Origin: Panopea generosa
Lineage: Eukaryota; Mollusca; Bivalvia; Adapedonta; Hiatellidae
Assembly (NCBI GenBank): GCA_029582155.1
Contig: CM055896.1
Span: 27,266,184-27,330,183 of the forward strand
Length of the DNA: 64,000 nucleotides
Direction of reading: 5' to 3'
Each line of letters begins with the position of its first letter. The first letter of the stretch is position 1. Both the position numbers and the translations under genes were made by a program. Below are positions 2,231 through 53,140 of the stretch, one piece after another. The notes beneath the pieces are model-generated. The model was given only the letters and a program-made list of their open reading frames with translations, was not told where the DNA came from and did not search any database.

Positions 2231-2499
2231 GGGAAAAGTCTGTTTTAGCCAATTCTGAACATTTTATATTTCCTCTCAACTTTCAAAGTGAACTCGCTAA
2301 ACAAGAGTCATTTGATTGAACATGTGTACAATTTAATACACAACAAGCTGTAATAATATATCTGATACGACGAAGGATATAGCATATATTTCACGCATGG
2401 ACATGTTGCACACATTTCAGCTATATTTTCAAACACCACAAGTCAACTGCAGAGGGAGTCACATGGCGATTTCACCAACTACATGTGCATGGAACCGAG

Positions 2500-4821: not shown

Positions 4822-4974
4822 TTATCGTCGCTTTGGTATGCTTGTAGTTATAAATCTGGCAAAAATTACTACACATCTAATCTCCAATTGACTACATATT
4901 CATAACAATTTTAATCTCCCATTGCCTACATATTCATAACAATTCTTTGTTAAAATATTATTATTATTTAAACA

Positions 4975-8974: not shown

Positions 8975-9141
8975 TTAAGTGACGAGTTCTTTACAAGCCA
9001 ACACAAGTCTCCACCCTGATATGATACTATATATGAATGTTCTACTACACGTTGTTGTGTTGCCGTCTGCAGCAATGTAAGGATTTTGTGGTGGGTTGAT
9101 ATCATCTTTTTGTCGGCAATATTCCCCAAATGCAATATCTC
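8975..9141 (-). pseudogene. Decayed F-type lectin first-half exon
   Basis: A phase-1 acceptor (TTCAG|GAGATATT) precedes DIAFGEY... followed by a CSRT motif, matching the lectin exon at 45463-45266 (DITAMEK..., [14 protein letters not shown]). Identity breaks after ELVT, where a TAA at 8977-8975 ends the frame, and no donor in the expected place was seen. No partner second-half exon was found nearby. It is best read as a leftover of a dead paralogue between the main gene and the paralogue beginning at 1.1 kb. Confidence 0.6.
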
Positions 9142-12509: not shown

Positions 12510-13500
12510 ATTTATATTTATATATGTATACTATATTATGCTTTCGATTACATCCAAATATCGTTAACAATTAAACACACGTGAAATTAGACAAGTTTGA
12601 TAATTTAAATTGGTCACGTTTACATGTAATAGTATGTGCTTTCGTACCATGGGTCACTTGCAAGGCATCGTACTTGTTTGTAGGATTGTCCGCATTATAC
12701 ACAACACTTGGAAAAGCATCATGTTGGTTTTCGTACCCTTGGGTGTTGCTTCAATAAAATGTGTATAAATGAAATGCTATTCTCTTTTAAGTATTGCACG
12801 ATATTACACAATCAGGAAAATTATTTACTAATTTGAAACTTTTAGCTTCCCAAAACCAGTTTAAGCATGAATTTAATGTGTAATCTTTGAAATAGTATTT
12901 GGGAAATGATCGATGACCTGGTACTATCTATAGAGTTCGTGGTAACACAGTAATCCATTGTTTTTAATTGATAACTATATCTCATTAATATATTCAGTTC
13001 TGTGTCCAAATACTACTAATTAATTGATCTAATGATTCGTTTTTAAGTGATATTTGTGCTGGATATCCAATATAATATAAATCAGTTCAATTATAAACAG
13101 TTAACTGTTTTTATTAATTCATTAAACTGAAATATTATATAAACTTATTATTATCACAACTCTCTATGTTTATACAGTAATAAAGTATGTATATTTTGTT
13201 TTGTTTTACTTAACTCAAATATCTGGTCAATGAATTGCAGATATATTTATTATATTTAAACTGTAAATATACGTTAAACTTTATAGTTTATTTGATTTAC
13301 TTATTCCCTATTTATTTACAAATTGACTCTATATATGGACATTATAAACGTCACAAAACAAAGAAGAACATGATGAATATCAAGTATAAAATGTAAGATG
13401 ACATTTCCTGCTGAAGTGACGAAGAACATGTGCACTTTAAACAACTTCATACATGATGGTACATGTAATAGTATTGAAGCTGAAATCAAGTATTATTGAA
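12510..13500. other. Intergenic downstream of the receptor gene
   Basis: Very AT-rich. No exon-like feature was recognised, and in particular no tyrosine phosphatase or other cytoplasmic domain that could continue the receptor. Confidence 0.45.
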
Positions 13501-13526: not shown

Positions 13527-13641
13527 TACCTCCTTTTTTTACGTCTGTGTCTTAAAACCACGACAATGACAACAGCGGAAACAACAACTGCTGCAGCAGC
13601 GGACACACCACCGACAATGGCTGCTTGTGGAGACGACGACG
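13526..13641 (-). CDS. Terminal exon: transmembrane helix and basic tail
   Basis: Acceptor CTCCCCCAG|CG, phase 1. The exon encodes 38 residues: a short juxtamembrane ASSSPQ, a hydrophobic helix ([15 protein letters not shown]...VVIVVVL, about 24 residues) and a basic stop-transfer tail RHRRKKRR before TAA. The last codons read AGGAGGTAA, which also forms a donor-like AGGAG|GTAAAT. The protein either ends with an 8-residue cytoplasmic tail or splices in phase 2 to further cytoplasmic exons. None were recognised in the 13.5 kb downstream. Confidence 0.7.
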
Positions 13642-16600
13642 CTGGGGGAGATATAAAATATATTGTATATATATGTAATTTCCGTATAACGGGATAAACT
13701 AATATATTTATATCGTGCATGATTACGGATAAACGCTCGAAAAGACGAGCATTAAGGATCCAACCATGATGTGTTACAATGTTATTGGGCATAAAACAAA
13801 TATGACGGAAATCGGTAGCGTCGTGGAGTGACATGAACTCCAGTTTGTTAAGCAGAAAATCTACATTTAACGCAACAACAGCAAAATAAAGGTATAATAA
13901 TTCCACAAAATAAAAATTGAAATATTTAGATACAATTTCCTTGTGAAATAGTTAAATAGTTTTAAGCTTTTTCAAACTCTATCCTTTTGTGTGTGCTTTA
14001 TATTTGCTTTTTGTCTGTTCTATTGAAAATGGACAATTTTTACAGCTGAAAAAATAAAATCAGTGTTTAGTGTATGAAGTGCTTTTTGGCTCGGTTGATA
14101 TTCAAATTGTCAACAGTGATTGAAAGACTGTAGTAAGGTGCATTACAACTTATCTATTTTAGGTTCATATGCCAATTTTGTAAATCCCCTGTATAAGCCA
14201 AAAAATGTAATGCTCATCAAAATTATAAAAATCAAGTTTAGATTGTGTATTGGTACATGGTGGTAATGTATTGAGCTTTAACAAGTATTTGAAATGTATA
14301 GTATTACACATAGTTGTACCTTTAATACAAACATATCCAACAAATCCATCGGCACACCCAAGTACACAGGTCCCTGTAACCTTTTCACAATTTGCAATTC
14401 CTCCCTCACAATTTCCACATGTTCCTAAGCAGCTGATGCCGTAGGTACCGTCAGAACATTCTAAAGATCAGAATTTAAAAACACAAAGGTTTCAATGCGC
14501 ACCATATTGTTGTCAATGGCTATACAATAAGTGTGTTGGTAGAGTATCAACCATTGCGACACTTTAGAAAGAAATACCTCAAATAGGAGAATCATTTTTC
14601 AATAGTTCAGTCACCACTGCATTGTTTTTGTTATAATTTTGCATTCTACTCTATTATTGTTTTAATACATTTAATTGTTGTTTTTTTTTCTAAAAGTGTT
14701 TGCTGTATGTAGTTTGAAAACAAAGTTAACTTCAACTTGCAAATAATTGAAATTCTAGGGAGGAGCGTGTGAGTTCATGCTCTCTAAATTGTAAACAAAT
14801 GTATAAGCATCTGTATCTATACACTATCTGCATGCTTAAAACAGACGGTGGTCTATTCTTAGCATACCGTACGATAACTGACAGTTAAAGCATACAGTTG
14901 TTTGTACATAAGCCACTCCTACACTACTGTCTATCCTGGCAGAAAATGTTGGGCCTTTAAATCATCAGATTACATACCATCAGTACAGTTGGATTCATAT
15001 TTGTACCCGGGTGGACATCCGCCATCACAAATGCAAGAAAATATGTTACATTGATCGGTTAAACAATGGCCACATTCATTCCTGCAATTAACTCCCCATC
15101 TTCCATTGTTGCATAAAGAAATTTGATTAGATTATTAGATATACTCTTACTTTATCGGACAGTTTGATAATAAAATAGTATTGTCTTAATGATATTTAAC
15201 ATAACACACGCATGCTACTTCCTGTAATAGATGAAAGGATGCAGGATTATTTTTTTCTAAAAATTACAATGGACAAAATCACGTTTTTCCCCCCAGTATA
15301 TCATGTTACATATATTTACAATGACATGCACATTGCACAAAGATAATATTAGCACATGCACAAATATTATCCTGAAAGAAATGTTACGAGCTTGGTGTAA
15401 AATTTTATTATAATCTCTTTTCTAACGAAATTTTCAACATATTTCATGTTATATGTGGCATAATAAGTTGTATTGGCTAGAGGCAGAAATCCAAATAGAA
15501 CCACCGTTCTACTGTAAGTAACTGACACACTTTCATGTTGGCTGCTATGGATATTACGCAATATGAATTACGGTTATAGATGGTCCGGTACAACTAAAAT
15601 CATGATTATTTTAGCTTAGTATGACGAATTTGAATGAGATTTTGAATTGTGAAATGATCATCTTTTGTGGAGATGTATTTTTCAATAATTTCTGTATAAA
15701 GTGTTCTGTATGATAGATTTATCGATAACAAATAAATTTAAATATGAAATTAAGTGCATTGATTAGGTTGAAATATGGATAAAGCGTTTACTTTAATCTT
15801 TGATCTCTTTCGTTGCATAAAGTATGCTTTATATTTTTATCAGGTGAATTTGCAATTTGCGATAACGATATTTTCACGCCTTTCAACAACAAGTATTAAA
15901 CTATTGACACGCCCTCTCCAGAAAAAAACTATTAATTTACATATATATTCCAGATTACCCCACGTTACGATGCGCACTGATTGTCGCGTGTGTCAATAAT
16001 TAAAATAGGTGTTCATATTTCCATGTTTGCTTTTAAATATATACAAACTATTTGGATACTTAAATTAAGTATTAAGTAATGGTAATGCTACCCTAAATAT
16101 ATAATTATATGAACTAATAATAAAGAGATAAGTTTCTAAAATGCTAACGGCAAACGTTGTCGTGATGGCAGTGTAATTAACCCGGAGAAAGTAAACTTAT
16201 ACCTCACCCTCAAAATAAAAATATGTAAATATCCCAACACAAAATAGATAATAAACTACGCTTAACAAAATTGGTAAGTATCAAATTATATTTTTTTAAT
16301 ATGCTATTTATTACTTAATATATAGACATGATTTTTTTTCAAAATATTATAACAGCCTTTAAACCCGTTTTCCATGGCGCGTATTTTTGCTGTGCTGTTT
16401 TTTCCCTAAGCTACTTTTTGCGCAGTATAAACAGGCGCACAGACAATCAATTTCCATGATGCAGAATTTCTGAGCAGAGTTTATAGAGGTACAAGCGTGG
16501 AAATATACATGTATTTATTGTGTAGTGCCAATCAAAAGTGAATTTCCATGCATTGTACTTGCAGACAAGCGTAGAAAAATCGCCTTTATTGGCGACTTTT

Positions 16601-19600
16601 GTCCGTGCGGTTATTAGTCAGCGCAAAAATCTGCTCCAATGGAAACGAAAGTATGCTAGATAGTGTGAAACGATTTTTACAAAAGCAGCGCCTGTTCTGT
16701 TCATTCAAACCCCTGCAATTTAAGCGCCGAAACCGTCAGAATACGCGCCACGGAAAATGGCCTTTAAGCGGACTCTTTAGCACAGAAATATTGTCCATTG
16801 TTATTACGATCACTCAAGCATAGAAAATTGTTAAAAAGTTCACGATGTGCACGTGAAGCAAATCACTTAAAGTCTCACCGCATAGAAAAAACATAAAATC
16901 TGTGGAAATTTTGCGTTGGATGACAATTGAAGAGCATGAAGAGCAGCGGCATGCTGCTTACTGGCAGGCCCATTTTACAGGTGCCTATAACTTCCCTGTT
17001 TTGCTTAATTTGTGCATCATTTTTATTGATTTGACTTAGAAATCCACATATCTGTCAGCAAAAAACATTGCCAACGTTCTTGTCGTCGACAAAATTGCTG
17101 GCGGCATCGTCGCGAGCCCCAAATGATTTGTTATTAAAACCAGTAATATAATTTGACTGTATCATTTAATCTATAAATTTGGAAAGTTTTGCCTGCCCTA
17201 TACACAGCTATTAGTTCATCTCGAGACCAGCACTGTTATGGTAAAGTTGAGAACAAAATAACCAATAACACCTTTTATAATTTAAGTATGATATCGTTGT
17301 TTAGATTTTTATAAAAAACAGCAATACAGTTCGTATAAAAAGTTATTATCAACTGTTACTTTTACCCCGAACCTTCAAATGCGGGCGCTTTGAGCTGCAT
17401 CACTTTACTTTTTACATGCATCATTTCAGGTCTCCATTCAATTCAATAGAACCCACCGGACGATCTGATGTTTGTGGCAGAAATATCAGAATACTTGAAG
17501 TGTTGCTGATCTGCCTCGCCGACGAAAGTAACACGTTATTAAGGGCAACCAGGATCACCACATGTTCCTGACACACCTGCGTAATCGACGATTGACGGGG
17601 ATTGAAGTTTGTACAAATCAAGGGGCTAGTGTTTATAGGTCTCACTACATTTTGACTTTTGTTCTTTGTTCTATATAAAATAAAGTCTCGGATTTCCATG
17701 GTAAAACAATAATTCCACATAGAATTATATTTTTTTTTCATAGAAGGAATGTCTACCCACATAAAAATGCAGAATAACTGGTAGGTTAACCAGGTGACAC
17801 CTTGCAGTGACACCCTCAGATTTTTTTTAAAAATGAAGTCCTCAAATGCTCATAAATACATTCATATGTTGAAATCCTATTTAACATCAGTGACGTCTTA
17901 TTGCAGTATAAGATATGCCAACTTTTGCTCTACTCAACTGCAGCAAGAAATCACAACCACTGTGAACCATTTTGAAAATATTTCAAACCAAAGGTTTTTT
18001 TAAGCGTAAGAATCATGTTTCCGTGGGAAAAAGGGTCGTGACTGTGTAGTGAGACGTTAAGACACTGCCCGTCGGACACTTGGCACCCATTAACGACCGA
18101 TAAACGCACAGACTGTCCGGAATAGACCGAAGGCAGAGGGCTTGATACATCGAAAGCCCTTCGTCGGCATTATCCTGACCGCTCCACACCGTCGGGACAA
18201 ACTTCATTGAGCGAGGCGCCATCTGGTTTCAATCAGATTGGCTAAAGTATTTTTACAGACATGTGTAAAATCCTGGTAAAACATAAACTTTAGTGCATTT
18301 TAATACATTTCGTTTTTACATACTTTATTTACTATATATATATCATATACTTAGATTTTGACATACTTACCTTGGTTACACAGCACTCCCTTCCATCCCG
18401 CCTCACACAGCTGTTCACAAGTACCGTTGATTTTATTACAGCTACCGTATCCGCCTTTACAATTGTCACTACAATTCTGACTGCAGTTATCACCGAACGT
18501 GCCGGACACACATTCTATAAAATAATATATGAGATAAATTAGAAATATATTTCCAGAAATGGGCACCATTTAATTTCTAATCAATTATGTTTATATGTTA
18601 GAAAATAATATCTTCAAAATAAACGTTTAATAAAACAACAAAGACTTCTTGGCAACTTTCACCTTTTCACTATTGATTTTCTTGTCTCTATTCTAAACAT
18701 CTCTAAGCTATCCGCCTATAATTGAAAACAATTTGTTTGCATCAAAATAATATTTCAGTTTTGTAACTTTAGGGACAACTATATTACATGTTTACAATTA
18801 ATGAATATTACTAGCGATATGTAAATAGCCTTATATGATAGAAAGCATAATTCAGAAAAACATTCCTTTAAAAAATGTTATATATATGATTGTAATAGTA
18901 TTTGTGTAGATGTGTGTATTATATAAAAACTATGTCAGTGCTCTAAATTATACATGCAAAACTTTGTAAATGTATGATGTGAAACAAAACATATTATTGA
19001 TTAAAATAATGAGAAACGGTTGTGTTGTGTATTCAATACTACATAATGTCGGTAACAAATATGTTATGCATACACGTACAGGCGATTACTATACATCCTT
19101 TTTGTTCTGATTATCGTTAATTGATTTAATTGATCATCTTTAATTCGTTAAGTTTGATGTTTATTGAATAACATTAACATTGGTAAGGCTGTTTTCAACA
19201 TACGTGTATTTTGGTTTGATATACACTGTATGGTACACAGTACTAGACGACGAAATACTCATATACAAATTCATACTCCTGAATACGAAACCACGTTCCT
19301 TCTACAAGTAACTGGCAAACAGTCTGACATATTAGAGTGTTTAGACCGAGTTGGGCTCTAATCAACAATCTCAGCGGTGAAATGAAGATAATATAGATAC
19401 TGCACCTATGTATGGATACAGATCAACATAAGTTGAACCCTCCATTTGGTAATAAGTTTTAATCTGAAGCTTTACATAAATACACACACCAGCTAATTCC
19501 GACGTCAATAATATGCTTTATGAAGTAAATCCAAATATTATTTATTAGAATAACATATCAAACTTAGTAAACTTTAACGGATAAACTTGTATTTCCAATG

Positions 19601-21790
19601 CAGTACATTTATATATTTCAGAGCTAATAGGTAATATACTAGCATACTATCAGACCTAGCGTATATGATTGAAGTATTCTACTTTATTGTCTGAAAGTTG
19701 TCGACCTTCGATAGTTAGTGTACGAACCGAATTGGTAAAGCTATAGAGTTAGTAATCAAATAATAATCTCATAACTAGTAGGAAATTTAACATAAACATA
19801 TGCCAGACAACAAGGTATCTCGGAATGCATGTATAATGGGTCATTTTCAAAAGATGTAGAATTTCTTGTCCAGAAGAAAAAAAAACGTTTGCTGATATAA
19901 AATATTTCACCTGACGTTATGCTAATGCTTGGAACCAACTGTAACAAATCTCTATAATTACATATTTTCTTCTTCAAATGTGATATTTAATTGAATATCA
20001 AGTAATCAGTACGGAAACTATACTGGGTGCTTGTAACACTAGCCTAAGGGCTCCTGTTATGTTATCTCAATCAATAAACCAGTCCATTACTTAATGTCCC
20101 TCCCGTTTCCATTATGTGAAATTGAATGGGAAAGAATATCTTTAAAAAGGAGTCCTATACATTATATTTCTTCGTGTAGTTTGATATCGGGGAGGAATTG
20201 ATGGTAGAAATAGTTGAAAAACACATTGGTATTGTCGAAAATCAAAATTGAACAGGAAATGATCTACATAATCTCCACATTATTCCTTGGTACAAAAATG
20301 CAATATCATTACCAAATGAACACTTTACTCTACTGATATGCCGTTTTACTCTTCTAGTTTGAAAGGCATTTAATACAAAATGGGTCCAGTTCTGATTGCT
20401 TAAACAGGTTATGAATGGTCGCTTTTGTAGTTTATAGAAATTACATAGTATCATTGACTATGTTCAATTTAAGTTAGGAATAGTTAATCAGTATCATTAT
20501 TGAATAAATGAATAACCCTTTCCATTATAATTAATAGAGACTGGACAGATGAACAGGAATTTGAACAAAACAACAGAAAGATACAACAAGATAATAAATA
20601 TGGTGATTATGATAAAAGAATAGCGATATTGAGAATGTGAGAATGTTTGAAATGGTTGAGAACAAGGATAGAACCAATAGAATTTGTAAAGCCGAAAGAC
20701 ATGTAACAAAGAATACATGCATAGAGATGATAAGAGAGACAGTGAGTGAGAGAGAGAATAAGAGGGAGGTTTTGATATGTTCACGATGAAAAAATGTTCT
20801 TCACAGATGAACAAAAAGTGGTAGATAAATAAAAAAAAGAACGGCTAACAAAAGTGACAATAAGGGTGATAATGAGGTACACGATATCAGCATTGAGAAC
20901 GCGTTAGTGCTTCAAAACAATGTACTGGTAGCCAATGAAGACAGAACCAATAGAGACTGGAAATATAACCAAGAAGTGGAAGAAACATCAGAAAGTAACA
21001 ACAAGATATATGAAGATGGTGATAATGATGAAAAGAATAGCAATATTGAGCATGTGAGATTATTTAAAACGGTTGATAACAAGGATGTCAATAGAAATTG
21101 TAATGGGACACAGAACACATGCATAGAGATGAATATAGACGAAAAGAATGACATAAGTGAGAGAGAGCGAATAGGTGGGGGAAAGATTGGGTCAAGTTGA
21201 CGTGAAAGAATGGACTACACAGATGAAAACAAAGTGCCAGATAAACCAAAACCGGAGAACAAGAATGACAATAAGGGTGACAATGAGGTTGAAGTTATCA
21301 GCATTGAGAGCGGGGCTTTGTTTGTGGTAGTGACAAACAAAGACACAGTCTATAGAGACTAGGCAGATGATCAGTAAATACAAGAAATAAAAGAAAATGA
21401 CAACACGATCGATGATGTTAGTGATACTGACGGAAAGTGTACTAGCAATATTGAACACGTGGGATTGTTTAAATTGTGGAAAACAAGGATAGAGCCAATA
21501 GCAATGGTTAAGTTGGAGAATGTGTAACAAAGAAAACATACATAGAGATGAAGATAGATAGAGAGGGAGTTGACAATAAAAAGTTGATGAACTATACAGA
21601 TAAACAAGAACTGACAGAAAAAACAACAATTGAGAAAAAGAGTGCCAATAAGGGTGGCAATGAGGTAAAATGTATAAGCACTGATAACAGGACACAGTTT
21701 GAAGACAATGTGCTGGAGGAAACAAAGACAGTTAGTAGAGATTAGACAGATAATCAGGAAGTTGCAGACACAGCAGAGAGAGAGAGAGAG

Positions 21791-21825
<35 letters not shown>

Positions 21826-21837
21826 CTGCTGAGAGAC

Positions 21838-21893
<56 letters not shown>

Positions 21894-24800
21894 GAAACTG
21901 CTGAGAGAGAGAAAGGGGGTGTGGGGGTGGTAGTTAGGGGACGTTGGCCATAGAGAAACGATGGACTGCTATGAAAACTATACTACTATTAAAACAGAGA
22001 CTGCATACAAATAGACAGCTTAGAAAATTATGCGATTGTCCTATATGATAAGATACCATATCCAAGATGCGTCGAGAATAAGGATTTAATGACATGTATG
22101 TAAACTGTATGCATCACATTGGCAGAAGGAATGATTGAAATTGGGAACCTGCACAAATAGAAGGATATTTCTCCCATTTTAAAGGTGATCTTCAATTCTG
22201 GGAGAAAATTCTTGAAATACTTCGAAATTGGCAATCTGCACAGTGAACAATGATAGTAAACATAACTCCACTGTATGCAACATCGAAAGTTTATGCGGCC
22301 CGTTTAACATTTTTCATCATTTCAATTTTAGGCGACTCAATTATTTTTGAAGAATGTTTTCACAAATATCGGGTTAATTTAATAAAGATTTAGTACTGGG
22401 CGTGTTCCAAGTGCACATAATGCATACTCGCCCTTCTTTACTGCCAAACACCTTCTATAATGGAGACATTTGGGTTAATGTGGGAAAGGTTAAAACAGTT
22501 TGGGTAAATGAAGTTTAATTTAATTTTCTTTATGTGAATTGTTCAGTAGGGCAGAAGTGTAAATATGTTTTGTTCTGAACTCTTTTAAACTAATGCTTAT
22601 TAAAACAGTCAAAACAGGCTCTACACTCAATTACGAATATAAAGAACATTGTGAGTTAGTCGTCATTAGGAATGTGTTAAACATCATTCATCAGGACTAT
22701 TAATCATTCAGAGTGTTTAGAAAACAGTGTGTTTTCTTTAAACATTTATTATTTGATGTAGTATTAGTTAAAGACAGTTTTCTTATTATTAACAACACGC
22801 TTATGATAAAAACAACTGTAGCTAGATATTTGCGCGTAAGCTACAACCGTTTACATAATTGCTGTTGATTTGGTTATGCTCTATCTGTGTAATATATTCG
22901 ATTGTAAGCGTTAATTTCATCCACTATTACGAACGGTATACGCTTGAACCAAGTCGTATTTTGTCTTTAACTTCCGTCAGTGTACATTTTATATATTTTG
23001 ATATAATGCTTTAATTCACTGTTAATTAAAAGAAAAAAAAGTCAATGGAAAAAGAGTTACAGTATACTTAAACTATTGTCATAATGCCATGACTATGGTG
23101 GTTTATCATTTGACCATCAACATACCGTAGAGGAACAGTACAGTGAATGTTAGTATTTAATTTACCATCAACACAAAGTGTTGTATATCTGTATCCCGCC
23201 ATACAACCGCCGGTACAGTTACCGGAGACTCTGTCACATGGACCATGTAAACAATGACCACAAGGCTGGAGGCAGTTCTCTCCAAAACTTCTGTTTGCAC
23301 ATTCTGTAAACAATCATCAAACAAACATGAAACTTAAAGACTGCGAATATGTTTTGTAAATAAGAAGTTAATACTGATGATCATCAATCAAAATCGAGCG
23401 GTTCGAACATTGGAATTCGTTTTGAAACTACAAAGTTTATTCTAAACAAATAAATCGCTTTTGGGCGGCGAATGCGTATGAATTTAAAGTGATGGTACAT
23501 ATGGTTAACATCCGTGGGAGAGTGTTTTTGTAATGATTTTATTGCTAATTATGAAATTAAAATTTAAATTAATCACTAATTACATACTGCAGTTATCTAA
23601 CTTAGTTATTGTAGTAGGGTTGATGACTTGGAAGATTTGTGTAAAGTTTAAATCAAATTCATTGAGTGATAAGTGAGATATGAGCTTGTTGGAACTTGCA
23701 CGCAAAGCTTTAACCAGAATTACTAAGTCAAACAAGGACAATACTTTGCATGATATAAACGCAAGGGTTATCGAACTTAGTTATTGTAGTAGGTTGATAA
23801 CTGTGAAGACTTTTGTAAAGTTTCAATCAAATACATTGAGTGGTTGGTTGGATATGAACTTTACGGTACAGAATGTCTAAGTCAAACAAGGGCAATTATT
23901 TGTATCATATTCATGCAAGAGTAAGCTAACTTAGTTACTGTAATATGTTGGATGACTAGGAAGGCTTGTATAAAGTCTCAAGTCAATACATACATTGGTT
24001 ACTGAGATATGGACTTGATGGTACTTGCACGCAAAACTTTAACCAGATTTTCTTAGTAAAAAAGAGGCAATAATTTGAATTATGTTCATGCAAAAGTTAA
24101 CTAATCTAGTTACTGTAGTAGGGTTGATGACTGAGAAGGCTTGTGTAAAGTTTTAATTAAATTCATTGAGTGGTTGGTGAGATATAGACTGGATGGTATT
24201 TGCATGCAAAACTCTAACAAGAATTTCTAAGTTCAACAAGGGCAATAGTTTGTATTATATTCATGCAAGCGTTATCTAACTTCAGTATTGTAGTAGGGTT
24301 GGTGCCTAGGAAGGCTTGTGTAAAGTTCCAAGGCCATATATACAATTGTTACGGAGATAGAGACTTGCATGCAAAACTTTAACCAGAATTTTCTCAGACA
24401 AACAAGAGCAATACTTTGTATTATATTCATGCAAGAGTAAGCCGATTTAGTTACTGTAGTAGGGTTGATGACTAGGAAGACTTGTGTAAAGCTTTAAGGC
24501 AATACATGCAGTGGTTACTGAGAAAAGGACTTGCATGCAAACTTTTATTCAAGGGTTGACGCCGACACCGACTCCCGGGTGATTTGCATGCATTGTACTT
24601 GCAGACAAGCGTAGAAAAATCGCCTTTATTGGGGACTTTTGTCCGTGCGGTTATTAGTCAGCGCAAAATCTGCTCCGATGGAAACGAAAGTATGCTAGAT
24701 AGTGTGAAACGATTTTAAAAAAGCAGCGCCTGTTCTGTTCATTCAAACCCCTGCAATTTAAGCGCCGAAACCGTCAGAATACGCGCCACGGAAAATGGCC

Positions 24801-27800
24801 TTTAAGCGGACTCTTTAGCACAGAAATATTGTCCATTGTTATTACGATCACTCAAGCATAGAAAATTGTTAAAAAGTTCACGATGTGCACGTGAAGCAAA
24901 TCACTTAAAGTCTCACCGCATAGAAAAAACATAAAATCTGTGGAAATTTTGCGTTGGATGACAATTGAAGAGCGTGAAGAGCAGCGGCATGCTGCTTACT
25001 GGCAGGCCCATTCTACAGGTGCCTATAACTTCCCTGTTTTGCTTAATTTGTGCATCATTTTTATTGATTTGACTTAGAAATCCACATATCTGTCAGCAAA
25101 AAACATTGCCAACGTTCTTGTCGTCGACAAAATTGCTGGCGGCATCGTCGCGAGCCCCCAAATGATTTGTTATTAAAACCAGTAATATAATTTGACTTTA
25201 TCATTTAATCTATAAATTTGGAAAGTTATGCCTGCCCTATACACAGCTATTAGTTCATCTCGAGACCAGCACTGTTATGGTAAAGTTGAGAACAAAATAA
25301 CCACTAACACCTTTTATAATTTAAGTATGATATCGTTGTTTAGATTTCTATAAAATACAGCAATACAGTTCGTATAAAAAGTTATTATCAACTGTTACTT
25401 TTACCCCGAACCTTCAAATGCGGGCGCTTTAAGCTGCATCACTTTACTTTTTACATGCATTATTTCAGGTCTCCATTCAATTCAATAGAACCCACCGGAC
25501 GATCTGATGTTTGTGGCAGAAATATCAGAATACTTGAAGTGTTGCTGATCTGCCTCGCCGACGAAAGTAACACGTTATTAAGGGCAACCAGGATCACCAC
25601 ATGTTCCTGACACACCTGCGTAATCGACGATTGAAGGGGATTGAAGTTTGTACAAATCAAGGGGCTAGTGTTTATAGGTCTCACTACATTTTGACTTTTG
25701 TTCTTTGTTCTATATAAAACAAAGTCTCGGATTTCCATGGTAAAACAATAATTCCACATAGAATTGTATTTTTTTTTCATAGAAAGAATGTCTACCCACA
25801 TAAAAATGCAGAATAACTGGTAGGTTAACCAGGTGACACCTTGCAGTGACACCCTCAGATTTTTTTTAAAAATGAAGTCCTCAAATGCTCATAAATACAT
25901 TCATATGTTGAAATCCTATTTAACATCAGTGACGTCTTATTACAGTATAAGATATGCCAACTTTTGCTCTACTCAACTGCAGCAAGAAATCACAACCACT
26001 GTGAACCATTTTGAAAATATTTCAAACCAAAGGTTTTTTTAAGCGTAAGAATCATGTTTCCGTGGGAAAAAGGGTCGTGACTGTGTAGTGAGACGTTAAG
26101 ACACTGCCCGTCGGACACTTGGCACCCATTAACGACCGATAAACGCACAGACTGTCCGGAATAGACCGAAGGCAGAGGGCTTGATACATCGAAAGCCCTT
26201 CGTCGGCATTATCCTAACCGCTCCACACCGTCGGGACAAACTTCATTGAGCGAGGCGCCATCTGGTTTCAATCAGATAGGCTTAAATATTTTTACAGACA
26301 TGTGTAAAATCCTGGTAAAACATAAACTTTAGTGCATTTTAATACATTTCGTTTTTACATACTTTATTTACTATATATATATCATATACTTAGATTTTGA
26401 CATACTTACCTTGGTTACACAGCACTCCCTTCCATCCCGCCTCACACAGCTGTTCACAAGTACCGTTGATTTTATTACAGCTACCGTATCCGCCTTTACA
26501 ATTGTCACTACAATTCTGACTGCAGTTATCACCGAACGTGCCGGACACACATTCTATAAAATAATATATGAGATAAATTAGAAATATATTACCAGAAATT
26601 GGCACCATTTAATTTGTAATCAATTATGTTTATATGTTAGAAAATAATATCTTCAAAATAAACGTTTAATAAAACAACAAAGACTTCTTGGCAACTTTCA
26701 CCTTTTCATTATCGATTTTCTTGTCTCTATTCTAACATCTCTAAGCTATCCGCCTATAATTGAAAACAATTTGTTTGCATCAAAATAATATTTCAGTTTT
26801 GTAACTTTAGGGACACCTATATTACATGTTTACAATTAATGAATATTACTAGCGATATGTAAATAGCCTTATATGATAGAAAGCATAATTCAGAAAAACA
26901 TTCCTTTAAAAAATGTTATATATATGATTGTAATAGTATTTGTGTAGATGTGTGTATTATATAAAAACTATGTCAGTGCTCTAAATTATACATGCAAAAC
27001 TTTGTAAATGTATGATGTGAAACAAAACATATTATTGATTAATATAATGAGAAACGGTTGTGTTGTGTATTCAATACTACATAATGTCGGTAACAAATAT
27101 GTTATGCATACACGTACAGGCGATTACTATACATCTTTTTTGTTCTGATTATCGTTAATTGATTTAATTGATCATCTTTAATTCGTTAAGTTTGATGTTT
27201 ATTGAATAACAGTTACATTGGTAAGGCTGTTTTCAACATACGTGTATTTTGGTTTGATATACACTGTATGGTACACAGTACAAGACGACGAAATACTCAT
27301 ATACAAACACATACTCCTGAATACGAAACCACGTTCCTTCTACAAGTAACTGGCAAACAGTCTGACATATTAGAGTGTTTAGACCGAGTTGGGTTCTAAT
27401 CAACAATCTCAGCGGTGAAATGAAGATAATATAGATACTGCACCTATGTATGGATACAGATCAACATAAGTTGAACCCTCCATTTGGTAATAAGTTTTAA
27501 TCTGAAGCTTTACATAAATACACACACCAGCTAATTCCGACGTCAATAATATGCTTTATGAAGTAAATCCAAATATTATTTATTAGAATAACATATCAAA
27601 CTTAGTAAACTTTAACGGATAAACTTGTATTTCCAATGCAGTACATTTATATATTTCAGAGCTAATAGGTAATATACTAGCATACTATCAGACCTAGCGT
27701 ATATGATTCAAGTATTCTACTTTATTGTCTGAAAGTTGTCGACCTTCGATAGTTAGTGTACGAACCGAATTGGTAAAGCTATAGAGTTAGTAATCAAATA

Positions 27801-30205
27801 ATAATCTCATAACTAGTAGGAAATATAACATAAACATATGCCAGACAACAAGGTATCTCGGAATGCATGTATAATGGGTCATTTTCAAAAGATGTAGAAT
27901 TTCTTGTCCAGAAGAAAAAAAAACGTTTGCTGATATAAAATATTTCACCTGACGTTATGCTAATGCTTGGAACCAACTGTAACAAATCTCTATAATTACA
28001 TATTTTCTTCTTCAAATGTGATATTTAATTGAATATCAAGTAATCAGTACGGAAACTATACTGGGTGCTTGTAACACTAGCCTAAGGGCTCCTGTTATGT
28101 TATCTCAATCAATAAACCAGTCCATTACTTAATGTACCTCCCGTTTCCATTATGTGAAATTGAATGGGAAAGAATATCTTTAAAAAGGAGTCCTATACAT
28201 TATATTTCTTCGTGTAGTTTGATATCGGGGAGGAATTGATGGTAGAAATAGTTGAAAAACACATTGGTATTGTCGAAAATCAAAATTGAACAGGTAATGA
28301 TCTACATAATCTCCACATTATTCCTTGGTACAAAAATGCAATATCATTACCAAATGTATGATAATTACAATTTTGTTACCGTCTCTTCTGTCACTCCTCA
28401 AACAGTAACAGATCTGATGTATTTAATAATAGCAAGTTCACTTTAATGAAGCGATAGATATAATACATAAAGAAATTCACAGTTTCAGACTGTCAACTAA
28501 TTTTGCTTATTGAAATAACCATGAGATAAATCATGGTACTGTTATTATTAAAGTTAATGTTTTCGAATGTTTATTTTTCGAAGATCTACTTTGCGTAGAT
28601 TATGGAAGCTTTAAGTTTAGCTGATATTAATGACAATAAGTGAAAATTAATCAAAATATTTATTTACGTCTTCAAAGTCTCTTATTTGTGAGAGCAACAG
28701 TAGTACAAATTCTCAGGTATCATCATCGAAATAATTTAATAAATGTTGAACACTTTACTCTACTGACATGCCGTTTTACTCTTCTAGTTTGAAAGGCATT
28801 TAATACAAAATGGGTCCAGTTCTGATTGCTTAAACAGGTTATGAATGGTCGCTTTTGTAGTTTATAGAAATTACATAGTATCATTGACTATGTTCAATTT
28901 AAGTTAGGAATAGTTAATCAGTATCATTATTGAATAAATGAATAACCCTTTCCATTATAATTAATAGAGACTGGACAGATGAACAGGAATTTGAACAAAA
29001 CAACAGAAAGATACAACAAGATAATAAATATGGTGATTATGATAAAAGAATAGCGATATTGAGAATGTGAGAATGTTTGAAATGGTTGAGAACAAGGATA
29101 GAACCAATAGAATTTGTAAAGCCGAAAGACATGTAACAAAGAATACATGCATAGAGATGATAAGAGAGACAGTGAGTGAGAGAGAGAATAAGAGGGAGGT
29201 TTTGATATGTTCACGATGAAAAAATGTTCTTCACAGATGAACAAAAAGTGGTAGATAAATAAAAAAAAGAACGGCTAACAAAAGTGACAATAAGGGTGAT
29301 AATGAGGTACACGATATCAGCATTGAGAACGCGTTAGTGCTTCAAAACAATGTACTGGTAGCCAATGAAGACAGAACCAATAGAGACTGGAAATATAACC
29401 AAGAAGTGGAAGAAACATCAGAAAGTAACAACAAGATATATGAAGATGGTGATAATGATGAAAAGAATAGCAATATTGAGCATGTGAGATTATTTAAAAC
29501 GGTTGATAACAAGGATGTCAATAGAAATTGTAATGGGACACAGAACACATGCATAGAGATGAATATAGACGAAAAGAATGACATAAGTAAGAGAGAGCGA
29601 ATAGGTGGGGGGAAAGATTGGGTCAAGTTGACGTGAAAGAATGGACTACACAGATGAAAACAAAGTGCCAGATAAACCAAAACCGGAGAACAAGAATGAC
29701 AATAAGGGTGACAATGAGGTTGAAGTTATCAGCATTGAGAGCGGGGCTTTGTTTGTGGTAGTGACAAACAAAGACACAGTCTATAGAGACTAGGCAGATG
29801 ATCAGTAAATACAAGAAATAAAAGAAAATGACAACACGATCGATGATGTTAGTGATACTGACGGAAAGTGTACTAGCAATATTGAACACGTGGGATTGTT
29901 TAAATTGTGGAAAACAAGGATAGAGCCAATAGCAATGGTTAAGTCGGAAAATGTGTAACAAAGAAAACATACATAGAGATGAAGATAGATAGAGAGGGAG
30001 TTGACAATAAAAAGTTGATGAACTATACAGATAAACAAGAACTGACAGAAAAAACAACAATTGAGAAAAAGAGTGCCAATAAGGGTGGCAATGAGGTAAA
30101 ATGTATAAGCACTGATAACAGGACACAGTTTGAAGACAATGTGCTGGAGGAAACAAAGACAGTTAGTAGAGATTAGACAGATAATCAGGAAGTTGCAGAC
30201 ACAGC

Positions 30206-30279
<74 letters not shown>

Positions 30280-30288
30280 CTGAGAGAC

Positions 30289-30336
<48 letters not shown>

Positions 30337-33300
30337 CAGAGAGAGAGACTGCTGAGAGAGAGAAAGGGGGTGTAGGGGTGATAGTTAGGGGACGTTGGCC
30401 ATAGAGAAACGATGGACTGCTATGAAAACTATACTACTATTAAAACAGAGACTGCATACAAATAGACAGCTTAGAAAATTATGCGATTGTCCTATATGAT
30501 AAGATACCATATCCAAGATGCGTCGAGAATAAGGATTTAATGACATGTATGTAAACTGTATGCATCACATTGGCAGAAGGAATGATTGAAATTGGGAACC
30601 TGCACAAATAGAAGGATATTTCTCCCATTTTAAAGGTGATCTTCAATTCTGGGAGAAAATTCTTGAAATACTTCGAAATTGGCAATCTGCACAGTGAACA
30701 ATGATAGTAAACATAACTCCACTGTATGCAACATCGAAAGTTTATGCGGCCCGTTTAACATTTTTCATCATTTCAATTTTAGGCGACTCCATTATTTTTG
30801 AAGAATGTTTTCACAAATATCGGGTTAATTTAATAAAGATTTAGTACTGGGCGTGTTCCAAGTGCACATAATGCATACTCGCCCTTCTTTACTGCCAAAC
30901 ACCTTCTATAATGGAGACATTTGGGTTAATGTGGGAAAGGTTAAAACAGTTTGGGTAAATGAAGTTTAATTTAATTTTCTTTATGTGAATTGTTCAGTAG
31001 GGCAGAAGTGTAAATATGTTTTGTTCTGAACTCTTTTAAACTAATGCTTATTAAAACAGTCAAAACAGGCTATACACTCAATTACGAATATAAAGAACAT
31101 GGTGAGTTAGTCGTCATTAGGAATGTGTTAAACATCATTCATCAGGACTATTAATCATTCAGAGTGTTTAGAAAACAGTGTGTGTTCTTCAAACATTTAT
31201 TATTTGATGTAGTATTAGTTAAAGACAGTATTCTTATTATTAACAACACGCTTATGATAAAAACAACTGTAGCTAGATATTTGCGCGTAAGCTACAACCG
31301 TTTACATCATTGCTGTTGATTTGGTTATGCTCTATCTGTGTAATATATTCGATTGTAAGCGTTAATTTCATCCACTATTACGAACGGTATACGCTTGAAC
31401 CAAGTCGTATTTTGTCTTTAACTTCCGCCAGTGTACATTTTATATATTTTGATATAATGCTTTAATTCACTGTTAATTAAAAGAAAAAAAAAGTCAATGA
31501 AAAAAGAGTTACAGTATACTTAAACTATTGTCATAATGCCATGACTATGGTGGTTTATCATTTGACCATCAACATACCGTAGAGGAACAGTACAGTGAAT
31601 GTTAGTATTTAATTTACCATCAACACAAAGTGTTGTATATCTGTATCCCGCCATACAACCGCCGGTACAGTTACCGGAGACTCTGTCACATAGACCATGT
31701 AAACAATGACCACAAGGCTGGAGGCAGTTCTCTCCAAAACTTCTGTTTGCACATTCTGTAAACAATCATCAAACAAACATGAAACTTAAAGACTGCGAAT
31801 ATGTTTTGTAAATAAGAAGTTAATACTGATGATCATCAATCAAAATCGAGCGGTTCGAACATTGGAATTCGTTTTGAAACTACAAAGTTTATTCTAAACA
31901 AATAAATCGCTTTTGGGCGGCGAATGCGTATGAATTTAAAGTGATGGTACATATGGTTAACATCCGTGGGAGAGTGTTTTTGTAATGATTTTATTGCTAA
32001 TTATGAAATTAAAATTTAAATTAATCACTAATTACATACTGCAGTTATCTAACTTAGTTATTGTAGTAGGGTTGATGACTTGGAAGATTTGTGTAAAGTT
32101 TAAATCAAATTCATTGAGTGATAAGTGAGATATGAGCTTGTTGGAACTTGCACGCAAAACGTTAACCAGAATTACTAAGTCAAACAAGGACAATACTTTG
32201 CATGATATAAACGCAAGGGTTATCGAACTTAGTTATTGTAGTAGGTTGATAACTGTGAAGACTTTTGTAAAGTTTCAATCAAATACATTGAGTGGTTGGT
32301 TTGATATGAACTTTACGGTACAGAATGTCTAAGTCAAACAAGGGCAATTATTTGTATCATATTCATGCAAGAGTTAGCTAACTTAGTTACTGTAATATGT
32401 TGGATGACTAGGAAGGCTTGTATAACGTCTCAAGTCAATACATACATTGGTTACTGAGATATGGACTTGATGGTACTTGCACGCAAAACTTTAACCAGAT
32501 TTTCTTAGTAAAAAAGAGGCAATACTTTGAATTATGTTCATGCAAAAGTTAACTAATCTAGTTACTGTAGTAGGGTTGATGACTGAGAAGGCTTGTGTAA
32601 AGTTTTAATTAAATTCATTGAGTGGTTGGTGAGATATAGACTGGATGGTATTTGCATGCAAAACTCTAACAAGAATTTCTAAGTTCAACAAGGGCAATAG
32701 TTTGTATTATATTCATGCAAGCGTTATCTAACTTCAGTATTGTAGTAGGGTTGGTGCCTAGGAAGGCTTGTGTAAAGTTCCAAGGCCATATATACAATTG
32801 TTACGGAGATAGAGACTTGCATGCAAAACTTTAACCAGAATTTTCTCAGACAAACAAGAGCAATACTTTGTATTATATTCATGCAAGAGTAAGCCGATTT
32901 AGTTACTGTAGTAGGGTTGATGACTAGGAAGACTTGTGTAAAGCTTTAAGGCAATACATGCAGTGGTTACTGAGAAAAGGACTTGCATGCAAACTTTTAT
33001 TCAAGGGTTGACGCCGACACCGACTCCCGGGTGATTTGAATAGCTCTTTTTATCCTCCGAATAGTCGAGTTAAAAACAATAAAAAGGTAAATTGAACTGA
33101 AAGTACAACCTGTTTGTTTTTTGAATTATGTTTGAAGTAGATTTTGTAAACAAGAATACACGAAGTCAAGCTTCAAGAAAGGTTATCAGAAATTAAACGC
33201 TAAAGTTGTCTTAAAACATTAAATCATTTTTTAAATGAATAAAAAAACATCTCATGACCAATAAGATATAAGATACGAATGGCTTGACATCCGAAATTCA

Positions 33301-35243
33301 CCAAAACTTAACAAAATCATTATTTGAATTGGAGTGGTAAACTTGAAACGAAATCCCCATTCTAAAAATAGACATCACTTAAAACTGCTTGTTAAACTTC
33401 ACATTGTCATACGGACTCTATCTAAGATAAAACAATGTTTACTTGTTCACCTGTATAACAGATCAAGCTGAATTCAAAATGAAACAACATGACTTATTTA
33501 ATACGTCATAAAATATGTTGCAATTTTAAGCGGGAAATATATTTAAGTCTAACCCAGGCCCAAGTTAGAAAATCCCCTTTCAATATTTTCTTTTAACATG
33601 TTTAAATGAATTTATTCTTTTGGCAATACGGGGGCAATGGGTATATGTTGAAAAAATATGTTTAGCCATTTTTTTAATTTTAACAATCCTGATAAATATA
33701 GACTTAGTGTATTTACATTTCTTTCGTATTTACATACTTTATTATTTTATATATCACATTATTATATTTTGATACACTTACCTTGGTCACACATCACTCC
33801 TTTCCATCCTGCCTCACATAACTGTTCACAAATACCGTTGACGTTATTACAATTTTCGTATCCGTATTTACAGTGGTTGCTACAATTCTGAATACAGTTT
33901 TCGCCATAGAAACCGGGCAAACATCCTATAAAATAGTGCAAAGGGGTCATCCAATATATATCATGCAACTATTCCGTTAACCTTATCAATGAAATTTCTT
34001 AATTGTTTGTTCAGTCTACATAATTATTTGAAGGAAGCATAAACATAATAACTTTCAACTATTCAAACATGATACAAAATATAATGTAAACATACAGGTA
34101 ATTATAATTAGATATTCAAATGATATGTTTTCTCTGTCAGAGAAAATTATTAAAATGTAACTTAAGGCATAATTATTTTTATCCTATTTATAATTCAAGT
34201 TGGTCTTTGTACGAGGTATGTCCAAAAAGTAATAGGACGACCCTGTCATTTTTGTATTTAGGACGTTATATGCAAACCAATGGTATCAATGGATAGATTG
34301 ACACATTTTCTATTGTCATAAAACATCAAATCAATTTTCAGTCATCATTAAGGTCATGCAAAAGTCACCATAATAACGCAAGTTAAGAAGTACGGGGGTC
34401 TTGAAAAATCAGACGCCTTTTAAACAAAAAACATTGCCTTGGAAAGCAGACAACTTCCTTTATATCGTGCCAAATGTTATGAAATAACAGTGGACGCATT
34501 TCAGATCATGTGCGAATGTTGTTAAAAAATTAGACGTTAACGATGCACATTTTGATATTATGCGCACTTTTGAAATAACAAGTGCAAATTTGAATAGTAA
34601 AAAAAAAATGGCCGACGTTACGCCAAGAGTGCATATTTGGAGTATGGTAAACTTTTGTGTTGGGTGTATTATGACTCACAGGATACTCTGAAGTTTATTT
34701 CACACAACTCTTTAACAAAAGGCATATCCTGGAGTTTTATCTTTTGGTGGTACAAACGGGTTTCCAAAGGTGAGGCGAAAGTAACTGACCATCAGTGATC
34801 TGAACGACCGTAATCTGTGGTTTTCTTGGGATTCGAGTCAGATCTTCGTGAAAAGCGCTTTTAGTACCTCCGGGCCATGTACCTGAGTGTACATTCTGTG
34901 GTTAGGATATATGAGTCATCATGTATTGTGACTTGTACCAGAAGTGGGTGCAGTACCACAATTATTTTTTTCAGCGATTCATACTTTGAAAAAAGAATGA
35001 ATTTCATTTGAATGTCAACTTGACGTCGCACAAATAACGTCAAACTCCCCTGTACTTTGATACATATAACTTTTGACTTGTCAAAATAAATGTTAAATGG
35101 TGGTGTACGATATTGAAATTTTGTATGCGTATTGTTCAAATATGGAAAATGATTCATGCTACGTTTGGTTTGGATTGAATCACTAGAATGCATATTTCTA
35201 AATGCGTGTTATTGTTTTTGGGACAAACCTCGTATTGTATTAA

Positions 35244-35292
<49 letters not shown>

Positions 35293-38200
35293 GTAATGCT
35301 AATAGTAATAATAGTATCTGTATTTTAAGAAAGTAACATATTTAGATCGTACAACAGTATAAAGTGTATCTACCATAAAGACCTTCTAAATAACATTTAA
35401 GTTATACAAACATAGAAGAAATGGTCAGCACATTTGAATAACTGGAATAGAAATAGAAAGCTATATACGAGATTATACATGTTATAAAAGAACAACAACT
35501 GCAGCTTAAGATTCTTATTATGTTAAACAAATACACTCTATAATTACTCTTTAATGCGTGTAAATGAAATGATAACCATATTTGTACAGGAATAGCATTC
35601 CAAAACATCCATGCCTACATCAGTAAAATAATGAACATTCTAAAGCTTAACTTAAAGTTGAATGATTGCAGTATCTTTATTTTCAGCTGATCGCAAATTG
35701 TATATTTTCTTTTTTGATAATACCATTTAACTACTAATATAAGAAGGCGCTAATTTATTAAGTGCTTTGTATACAATTAATCCATTTTGATATTTGCAAC
35801 GTTCATTAAACGATAACCATCCCGTTTGAATTGTGTACATTGATTGTTAATGCACATTATAATTAACTACATGTATCATCGCTCATAGGATTATGCTTAT
35901 ATTTATCAACTGTCAATGTCAATATTAATATAACACTCATATATTATCAATAACAGATTGAAAGTTCTGTTTCTTAGTGCAAAGTGAGAACTGCCGCTTT
36001 TCATTCTTATCATTATACTGTGCTAAATTCCTATCCGGAAAACGATGTTGAAATATTTTGTGAATCTGGACTATAAATTCACGTTTGGAATATAGTTTTG
36101 TATTTTGAATTAATAACTTCTAACTACACATCCTGGAGCACAGCCGTTCGGGCATGTACCATTATCCTTCTGACAAGTTGAATTTTCTTTACAATTGACA
36201 CATATTTGGCTACAGTTTGATCCATTAGTTCCATCATCGCAGACTATCAGAGAAAACATTAAATAATATACTAGTATATACGATTTGGTATCGTTATTTT
36301 GTTGGTTATATAAAGATTTCTGTATAATTATGATTTGTGATAATTAATATAATGAATGCATGAACTTATCAACTGCATGTAGCTGTACGAATAAGTGAAC
36401 CATGAATGGGTCCATATAAATATCTGCTAGTTGCATATAAGTTTTCATGGATGTTCATTCTTTATATATATCATCGAGGCATACATTCTACAGCGGTAAA
36501 TTAATTAGTGTATACATTATTTAAGTGTAGGTCATTTAATGGTACATCAATATAAACATTTCTGTTTTGTTATCCCGCATCTATTACAGTTACAAAGAAA
36601 TTTCATATTATATTAAACGGAACCAAATAACCTATACTTTATTTGTCATGCCATTTTTATTGTATCATTTACTAAATCAAAAGTTGCCGTTGTCGGGTAT
36701 GCATTCATGTGTTATGAGGAGCAAATGTATATATAATGGTCTAGATCGTGGTCGCACTTGGCCTAGCAACTTTTTAATAGCCGCCAAACAACATGCACCT
36801 ACTTCAGGCCGATCACGAACAAGACAATCTGGTCGTTCTGTATTATACGTTCAATGAAAGAGTTATGTCACGAACATTAATTGTAAACATAATACAATTT
36901 GTTATGAATGATACGATTTACCTGGCTTGAATATTGGTTATTTACTCATGAAATATGATTAAATTTAATTAATTAAAGACATGTACCTGATTCACATGCT
37001 GTTGTGTGTTTATATCCGTATTTGCACCCTTGTGGGCAGTGTCCTGTTTGGACACTACATGGTCCTGCGTTGAGACAACTTCCACATAAATTATCACAAC
37101 CTAGACCCCATCTACTTGCATTGCATTCTGTAGTATATAAATAGAACATACCACCATCACATGTGTAATAAATAGTGTGTGATTATGTATAATACATTAT
37201 CATAAACATGCAAGCATTATACTACACATGTATTAATTACTGCCTGTAAAGATATAAAGAAATGCAAACAGAAAGTATTGTTTTTCTATATAATAAATAT
37301 ATATATATTTACATGAATGTATGTACAATAGTAAATTGAAAAAAATATTCGCCTGTAATTAATTGTACTATCAAAAATCGTTTCAAACAGTTATTAAAAT
37401 AATAATTATATTAAAAATAATAATGATTTAGAAAAATAATAATTTTATAACATCATACCTCCGAACACTTGAACTTCACAGATCTGAAGAGTTACATTTC
37501 CCATACTGTACAGTCTCAAATAACGAGTATTTGCGACCAGTGTTAAATATTTTATAAAGATATTATTCCTGGAGCCGTCATAAAGTGTTATCCAGTTGTC
37601 ATTTGAATCATTTCTGGCATGTAACCTGAAGTTCCTTAGTCCTTTTGAAATATATCAAGACGTCAGTATGAGTATTTAATACAGTCAAAAAGTAGAAATT
37701 GTGTGTATTCCTACAAAAATTGCAGCATTGAAGAAAGATTCACAAAACTCCACACAAAAGTTAAACATAATACAATAGTGAGTCACGGGCAAAAAGTAAA
37801 TGAGAGTAAAAACATTATATGAAACTTCATACAGAATGAGAATGTCACGCCTAACAATCAATCATTTTCTCCTGTAAAAGTCATCGTTAAATAGTACAAT
37901 GTCGCCTTTCAGCATTGAGAATGTTGAAAATAAAGAAATAAAAGAAGACTCACACGACGAAGCTTTATATTGACAGATTGTCATGATAGTACACACGTCA
38001 GGAAAGTCTACCTATAAGTATAGCTTGTCACATTAAGGATAAAATACTAGTATTTAATCATGCATGTTACATGTGAACTGGCGAATATTTAACAATTATA
38101 TCATTACCTAATAGATGATCAACCGAAATCGTGATGATAATATTATAATAGTGTATAATGTATCTATTACTCTTACATACCATTTATAGAAGTCAAAATA

Positions 38201-51942: not shown

Positions 51943-52455
51943 GTTATTCGTAATTAAAATCATTGATCAGCAGTTGATAATTGTAAAATATATCGAGGAT
52001 CTTACATGAGTGCTCATTTATAATTGAATTGATTAAACGAATTGGCAAAACATATTATATTAAGCAAGGTTCACATGTAACGTGTTTAATAAATTAGATA
52101 ACAAACAAGAACGAATGTAAGATTCATTTTATATCATAATTCAGAATAACAGTACGTTTACCATTTATTTAACATATGATATCTATAAGAAACAAGAAAA
52201 AGTCTGGCATATTTGTTTCCGTCATTCGTGGTATGATGTAACGTCTCAATATGTCATGGGTGTATTACACTCGTGCACCATAAAATATATGATAATTGAT
52301 ATGATAATTTGTACCGAGCACAAATGAAATAGATCACTTTGTAGTTCTGTTTTAAGAAAATAGAATGTTTGGTATAGGTTAGGTGAAAATTGAGGAACAA
52401 GCGAAAATTTTGGCGGTGAGGAAACATATATGATAAATGATTATTCATTCTCTAT

Positions 52456-53140
52456 GTGCTATTGATTACATGTAACTTAAAACGGGCGAACCTAGATTCA
52501 TATGCTACCATAATTTATTAATAGAATGTAAATACATGTATGTCTATTGATTACATGTATCTTAAAACGGGCGAACTAAAATTCATATGCTACCATAATT
52601 TATTAATAGAATGTAAAAACATGTATGTCTATTGATTACATGTAACTTAAAACGGGCGAACCTAGATTCCTATGCTACCATAATTTATTAATAGAATGTA
52701 AATACATGTATGTCTATTGATTACATGTAACTTAAAACGGGCGAACTTAGATTCCTATGCTACCATAATTTATTAATAGAATGTAAATACATGTATGTCT
52801 ATTGATAACATGTAACTTAAAACGGGGGAACCTAGATTCCTATGCTACCATAATTTATTAATAGAATGTAAATACATGTATGTCTATTGATTACATGTAA
52901 CTTAAAACGGGCGAACCTAGATTCCTATGCTACCAAAATTTATTAATAAAATGTAAATACATGTATGTCTATTGATCACATGTAACTTAAAACGGACGAA
53001 TTTGATTCCTATGCTACCATAATTTATTAATAGAATGTAAATACATGTATGTCTATTGATTACATGTAACTTGAAACGTGCGAACCTAGATTCCTATGCT
53101 ACCATACTTTATTAATGTAATGTAAGTACCTGAATGTCCT
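52456..53140. repeat. 85-bp satellite array (8 units)
   Basis: Exact 85-base spacing of TGTCTATTGATTACATGTAA phrases (52541, 52626, 52711, 52796, 52881, 52966, 53051) with ACTTAAAACGGGCGAACCTA in each unit. It starts about 0.6 kb upstream of the alternative exon at 51833. Confidence 0.95.

Follow-up and report, generated by a model that had tools for sequence, protein, structure and literature searches.

Two adjoining direct units in a predicted receptor gene

We analyzed a 64,000-nucleotide stretch of Panopea generosa DNA (the window; C3:27266184-27330183, C3 being the 97.8-Mb contig CM055896.1) that carries, on its minus strand, a predicted gene for a transmembrane receptor with a fucolectin-like head and a stalk of EGF repeats. 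Two near-identical direct units adjoin each other within the stalk-encoding part of this gene, and it is highly probable, judging from the window and its paralogues, that they arose by a genuine recent tandem duplication inside the fucolectin/EGF receptor gene. The units, their joint, and their EGF exons are as follows:

16547-24586, no strand: tandem unit 1 (8,040 bp, without a 392-bp segment)
24587-33038, no strand: tandem unit 2 (8,452 bp)
24581-24592, no strand: internal joint between 24586 and 24587, where unit end meets unit start
18371-18514, minus strand: A-type EGF exon of unit 1 (144 bp, phase 1-1)
23166-23303, minus strand: B-type EGF exon of unit 1 (138 bp, phase 1-1, Pro codon)
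26410-26553, minus strand: A-type EGF exon of unit 2 (identical to the A exon of unit 1)
31618-31755, minus strand: B-type EGF exon of unit 2 (138 bp, derived Leu codon)

An earlier note on this DNA had described near-identical direct tandem units of 8.04 and 8.45 kb, and both self-BLAST and inspection of the borders, which were set base by base, bear this out at the same coordinates. Self-BLAST gave two direct matches, 16538-20318 with 24579-28356 at 98.81% and 20317-24586 with 28747-33038 at 98.88%, and chance could not plausibly give 8 kb of about 99% identity. The window therefore holds two adjacent direct copies, as expected of a true tandem duplication. The likeness of about 98.8% counts gaps. 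The aligned units differ by 69 substitutions; with 7 inside an AG repeat (21775-21900) and 1 at the border dropped, 61 remain, which corresponds to 0.77% outside the repeat, in addition to a 392-bp insertion or deletion (indel) and a few indels of 1 to 20 bp. The gap in unit length is mainly due to the 392-bp segment (28355-28746), which is found only in unit 2. The flanks of the joint have 0 bases in common directly at the joint and ATTT in common one base away, and no long homology between unit end and unit start was found there, only a few common bases.

An imperfect array of a repeat of about 175 bp lies at 23592-24545 and again at 32044-32997, and in each case ends about 40 bp before the end of the unit. 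It is followed by what looks like the end of a mobile element, which reaches past 33038 and is also present in one paralogue. A putative bivalve repeat end at the right border of the unit was sought in viral contigs as evidence that this border is ancestral, and the 8 and 1 matches were to unrelated sequence; the paralogues settled the matter.

EGF exons, reading frame, and domain structure

Each unit carries one A-type and one B-type EGF exon, and we confirmed that the A exons are identical and that the B exons are one base apart, both as first reported. The single difference (23240 in unit 1, 31692 in unit 2) separates CCA, encoding Pro, in unit 1 from CTA, encoding Leu, in unit 2. Pro is also found in both paralogue regions that cover the site, so Leu is the derived state. 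All four unit exons have AG acceptors, in-phase GT donors, open frames, and phase-1 ends. One A and one B exon (144 + 138 bp) amount to 94 codons per unit, and with phase 1 at both ends of each exon, an additional unit contributes 94 residues and leaves the frame intact. The in-frame gain of about 94 residues that had been proposed thus holds at the level of sequence, given the phase-1 ends and the 282 coding bp. We expect the stalk to be longer by one B+A EGF pair of this length, and we infer that the pair is used in mRNA. A search for the 94-residue pair in viral contigs gave no match.

The gene as a whole is a minus-strand series of exons running from 46.6 to 12.7 kb, in the order EGF-like exon, two fucolectin-like domains of two exons each, EGF exons, transmembrane exon, and short tail. 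Exon borders were set by eye on AG/GT dinucleotides and phase, and the predicted spliced model of 724 residues excludes the EGF exons at 36.1 and 15.1 kb, which are doubtful. Outside the units, the exons are as follows:

46449-46610, minus strand: N-terminal EGF-like exon (an upstream signal-peptide exon was not located)
45266-45463, minus strand: first exon of fucolectin-like domain 1 (spliced model, Pfam)
39305-39532, minus strand: second exon of fucolectin-like domain 1 (spliced model, Pfam)
38181-38387, minus strand: first exon of fucolectin-like domain 2 (spliced model, Pfam)
37459-37641, minus strand: second exon of fucolectin-like domain 2 (spliced model, Pfam)
36987-37127, minus strand: B-type-like EGF exon (exon reading)
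36125-36241, minus strand: EGF exon with 3' end and donor replaced (outside the spliced model)
33782-33925, minus strand: older A-type EGF exon, lying beyond the duplicated units (110 of 141 bases the same as in the unit A exon)
14979-15113, minus strand: fossil B-type EGF exon without a splice acceptor (outside the spliced model)
14320-14460, minus strand: membrane-proximal EGF exon (exon reading)
13530-13641, minus strand: transmembrane exon with basic stop-transfer (hydropathy)
12658-12748, minus strand: probable cytoplasmic tail exon (YENQ, YDAL; 3' end uncertain)

Pfam matched the spliced model to F5/8-type C domains, namely PF22633 (2.5e-17) and PF00754 (1.6e-14), each over two stretches, and a search against solved structures matched the lectin part to FBP32 (4.7e-11). 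No EGF family in Pfam matched the spliced model at E values up to 0.1; the EGF exons were identified by conserved cysteine spacing in a 10-exon alignment, by phase-1 borders, and by similarity to the EGF region of Tie2. Between the older A exon at 33.8 kb and the unit A exon, nonsynonymous divergence (dN) is 0.18 and synonymous divergence (dS) is 0.77 (NG86), as would be expected for a coding exon under constraint. The transmembrane segment reaches a hydropathy of 2.74 over 21 residues and is followed by a basic stretch, as in a single-pass receptor, and the transmembrane and tail exons are open. The predicted model, with its lectin-like head, EGF repeats, and transmembrane segment, supports the view that the duplicated exons belong to a receptor stalk. 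The fucose-binding motif of F-type lectins, HX24RXDX4(R/K), as given in PMC5712786, is absent from the 724-residue model, as is any RX[DE]X4[RK], spacings of 20 to 31 after His having been tried; thus, we do not claim sugar binding. An 86-bp minisatellite of 26.7 copies (41785-44079) sits inside the intron that divides the first fucolectin-like domain.

Single-unit paralogues and competing explanations

Paralogues were sought in the same assembly (1.474 Gb, 39 contigs), with 40 of 131 candidates scored for the A-exon query and 40 of 49 for the B-exon query, so that counts are lower bounds. The A exon has at least 44 matches at 40 or more places and the B exon at least 40, all at 27.28-32.52 Mb on C3. 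Among the scored matches, the window copies top both lists, the next best reach 96% (A) and 97% (B), and none is a third copy above 97%. We fetched 11 paralogue regions (ten of 20 kb, one of 16 kb), chosen for closeness or tandem spacing and not at random.

The left border of the duplicated region is continuous in 5 of these 11 regions (92-97%) and the right border in 3 (84-96%), while the internal joint is spanned by none; from the remaining regions, the stretch concerned is missing or lies beyond their ends. The region at C3:30.766 Mb, the only one to run across both outer borders, has a single unit that lacks about 4 kb of its interior. The region at C3:31.246 Mb, colinear with 26300-36005 of the window over 9.77 kb at 95.3%, also has one unit. 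Since the outer borders are continuous in single-unit paralogues and the joint occurs in 0 of 11, the single unit is ancestral here and the joint derived. Tandem duplication in the receptor gene, the central claim of the earlier note, is therefore backed both by the sequence of the window and by single-unit relatives in the same genome. The 392-bp segment is carried by 6 of the 11 paralogue regions, which rules out an insertion as the origin of the difference and indicates that the segment was lost from unit 1.

The duplication would have required a break in each of two introns, that following the A exon and that preceding the B exon, with the broken ends then joined head to tail without long homology. 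Because the flanks of the joint have no long sequence in common, end joining or template switching would be a better explanation than recombination between repeats. Because the block contains two phase-1-bounded exons, the frame was kept and the stalk should be 94 residues longer; each copy has since gathered its own mutations, and unit 1 has lost its 392 bp. Direct repeats of 8 kb should also permit unequal crossing-over, producing alleles with one, two, or more units.

All 61 substitutions could be polarized, with C3:31.246 as the outgroup at 40 sites and C3:30.766 at 21, and 20 are derived in unit 1 and 41 in unit 2. Scored against the fetched paralogues, of which 1 to 9 cover each site, 56 of the 61 are private to one copy (38 to unit 2, 18 to unit 1), and the other 5 show both states among paralogues. 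The units had been called either recent or homogenized. Private and scattered differences fit the first of these, and homogenization is not needed to account for the likeness: no clear sign of it was found, though mutation density is uneven, and the copies appear to be diverging.

Several observations weigh against a simple recent duplication that lengthens a working receptor. The derived changes are unequal (20 versus 41, binomial p=0.0099) and the substitutions are unevenly spread along the unit (Kolmogorov-Smirnov p=0.005), neither of which a simple clock would predict. A divergence of 0.77% plus an indel is possible between two alleles, and in the pearl oyster, heterozygosity of 2.55-3.57%, above the value here, is reported (PMC9646362). 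In addition, the EGF exon at 36.1 kb is damaged, and the locus may not be fully functional.

This last point bears on a first alternative, that the duplication is real and the protein is not lengthened, either because the extra exons are skipped or because the gene is decaying. A strict splice rule, requiring an AG acceptor, an in-phase donor after G, and the absence of a stop, is passed by 7 of the 9 EGF exons that the scan found in the window. The two that fail, which argue for this alternative, both lie outside the units. The fossil exon at 15.1 kb has lost its acceptor here and in each of the five fetched regions in which it occurs; the exon at 36.1 kb has had its 3' end and donor, both intact in two aligned paralogues, replaced by unrelated sequence (36113-36250), and only a weak in-phase GT remains. 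Skipping this exon, or any EGF exon with phase-1 ends, would keep the frame. Of 73 EGF matches in the 11 fetched paralogue regions, 56 pass the rule, and the 17 failures comprise 8 with A or C as the last base before an in-phase GT as their only fault, 7 copies or pieces of the fossil exon, and 2 with a stop. The four exons of the units, in contrast, keep their acceptors, in-phase donors, and open frames, and the exons for the membrane segment and tail are likewise open, so we regard an unlengthened protein as rather unlikely.

A second alternative is a false heterotype duplication, in which the units are two alleles of a single-unit locus that the assembler joined in tandem. Assemblies of heterozygous genomes often contain such false duplications (PMC9516828), and the private differences could be allelic if the copies were two haplotypes, so their divergence cannot date the event firmly. 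The C3 cluster also contains other near-identical stretches, such as 30.88 versus 31.09 Mb at 99.5-99.9%, that are either segmental duplications or retained haplotypes. However, the window has 0 N bases, at or between the units or elsewhere, and so no assembly gap of the kind that would point to such an error. An overlap join would need common sequence, of which unit end and unit start have only a few bases, and no leftover third copy above 97% is present among the scored matches. We therefore consider misassembly of two alleles improbable, and a genuine tandem duplication remains the favored explanation.

A third alternative is an older duplication whose copies gene conversion has kept similar. 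This would be consistent with the uneven mutation density (39 substitutions in the first 3.77 kb versus 22 in the following 4.14 kb, p=0.014), with runs of up to 822 bp that are free of substitutions, with the 5 of 61 sites showing both states among paralogues, and with a locus that is a mosaic of two paralogue groups in a family where paralogue recombination is probable; it is very improbable nonetheless, as the 56 private differences are spread over the unit, the A exon does not fall within any of the six longest clean runs (one such run, of 467 bp, begins inside the B exon), and the background rate already predicts the identity of the exons. At the unit rate, 2.2 changes are expected in the 282 coding bp, and the probability of at most 1 is 0.36; we thus do not read the identity of the exons as evidence of constraint or homogenization.

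The mosaic appearance is centered near 18260: leftward, the best matches are C3:31.73 and 32.29 Mb (about 96% near 16.5 kb), and rightward, C3:31.246 Mb (95%). This pattern suggests that paralogues recombined near the A exon before the duplication took place.

The C3 paralogue cluster and known systems

A query with the transmembrane exon gave 32 matches at 31 places, all at 27.28-32.46 Mb on C3. Of the 11 fetched regions, 8 contain tandem EGF-exon arrays, tandem spacing having been one of the grounds for selecting the regions. A 2.57-kb unit occurs twice at both 31.57 and 31.92 Mb (98% alike), and a 2.19-kb unit occurs four times at 30.89, 31.10, and 32.51 Mb and twice at 31.73 and 32.29 Mb. 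The most alike of the fetched arrays is a 2.32-kb unit with two EGF exons, repeated four times head to tail at C3:32.3749-32.3842 Mb, with 99.5, 99.3, and 98.7% identity at offsets of one, two, and three periods. With that of the window, there are four distinct unit lengths. Some array regions are near-copies of each other, so these are not eight independent events. Growth by EGF-exon blocks appears to be recurrent in the C3 cluster, having probably occurred more than once.

Stretches of about 18-19 kb in the cluster also form pairs that are 98.4-99.9% alike (C3:30.880-30.900 versus 31.090-31.110, 31.560 versus 31.914, and 31.726 versus 32.285 Mb). These are either recent segmental duplications or retained haplotypes.

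In-frame tandem duplication by way of symmetric phase-1 EGF exons is known from many EGF-repeat proteins. The window gene resembles these in its phase 1-1 exons, its preserved frame, and its raised repeat number; it differs in that the event is young enough for borders and joint to be read against single-unit paralogues. Among solved structures, the EGF part (model residues 310-450) is closest to the EGF region of Tie2, the angiopoietin-1 receptor (E 1.8e-7). Unlike Tie2, the window gene has a fucolectin-like head, and no other Tie2 domain was matched in the Pfam or structure searches.

The nearest published parallel that we found is sperm bindin of the oyster Crassostrea gigas, an F-type lectin whose tandem lectin domains vary from one to five in number within the species (PMC5712786). 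Both are fucolectin-type genes in which tandem domain number and protein length change. Bindin, however, repeats the lectin domain in a sperm protein, whereas the window gene, seen in one assembly, repeats EGF stalk exons in a predicted membrane protein. By analogy with bindin lectin-domain number, the cluster at 27.3-32.5 Mb on C3 might, as a tentative proposal, constitute a system for diversifying stalk length, in which repeated EGF-block duplication and unequal crossing-over would give individuals receptors of different reach. The gene and structural presence-absence variation of the Mytilus pan-genome (PMC7653742) likewise involves young expanded families and structural variants; whole genes vary there, and an intragenic exon block here.

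No close published case of tandem EGF-exon duplication appeared among the papers listed in literature searches, which is not proof of absence. The kind of event is already known; what lifts it above the routine is that its polarity is clean and that arrays recur across the cluster. In-frame growth of an EGF stalk has been caught early here, with borders, joint, private mutations, and indel direction all readable against single-unit paralogues. Because the cluster holds several EGF-exon arrays, copy number per gene and per individual is a testable source of receptor diversity.

The window has a G+C content of 34%, and tRNA and Rfam scans of it gave 0 matches. By eye, a fragment at 8978-9130 resembles the first fucolectin exon and ends in a stop; it is possibly a family remnant and had no Pfam match. 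Retroelement-like open frames were noted, also by eye, on the minus strand at 2300-4900, three pieces of which had no Pfam match above the cutoff. An 85-bp tandem repeat of 8 copies occupies 52453-53138.

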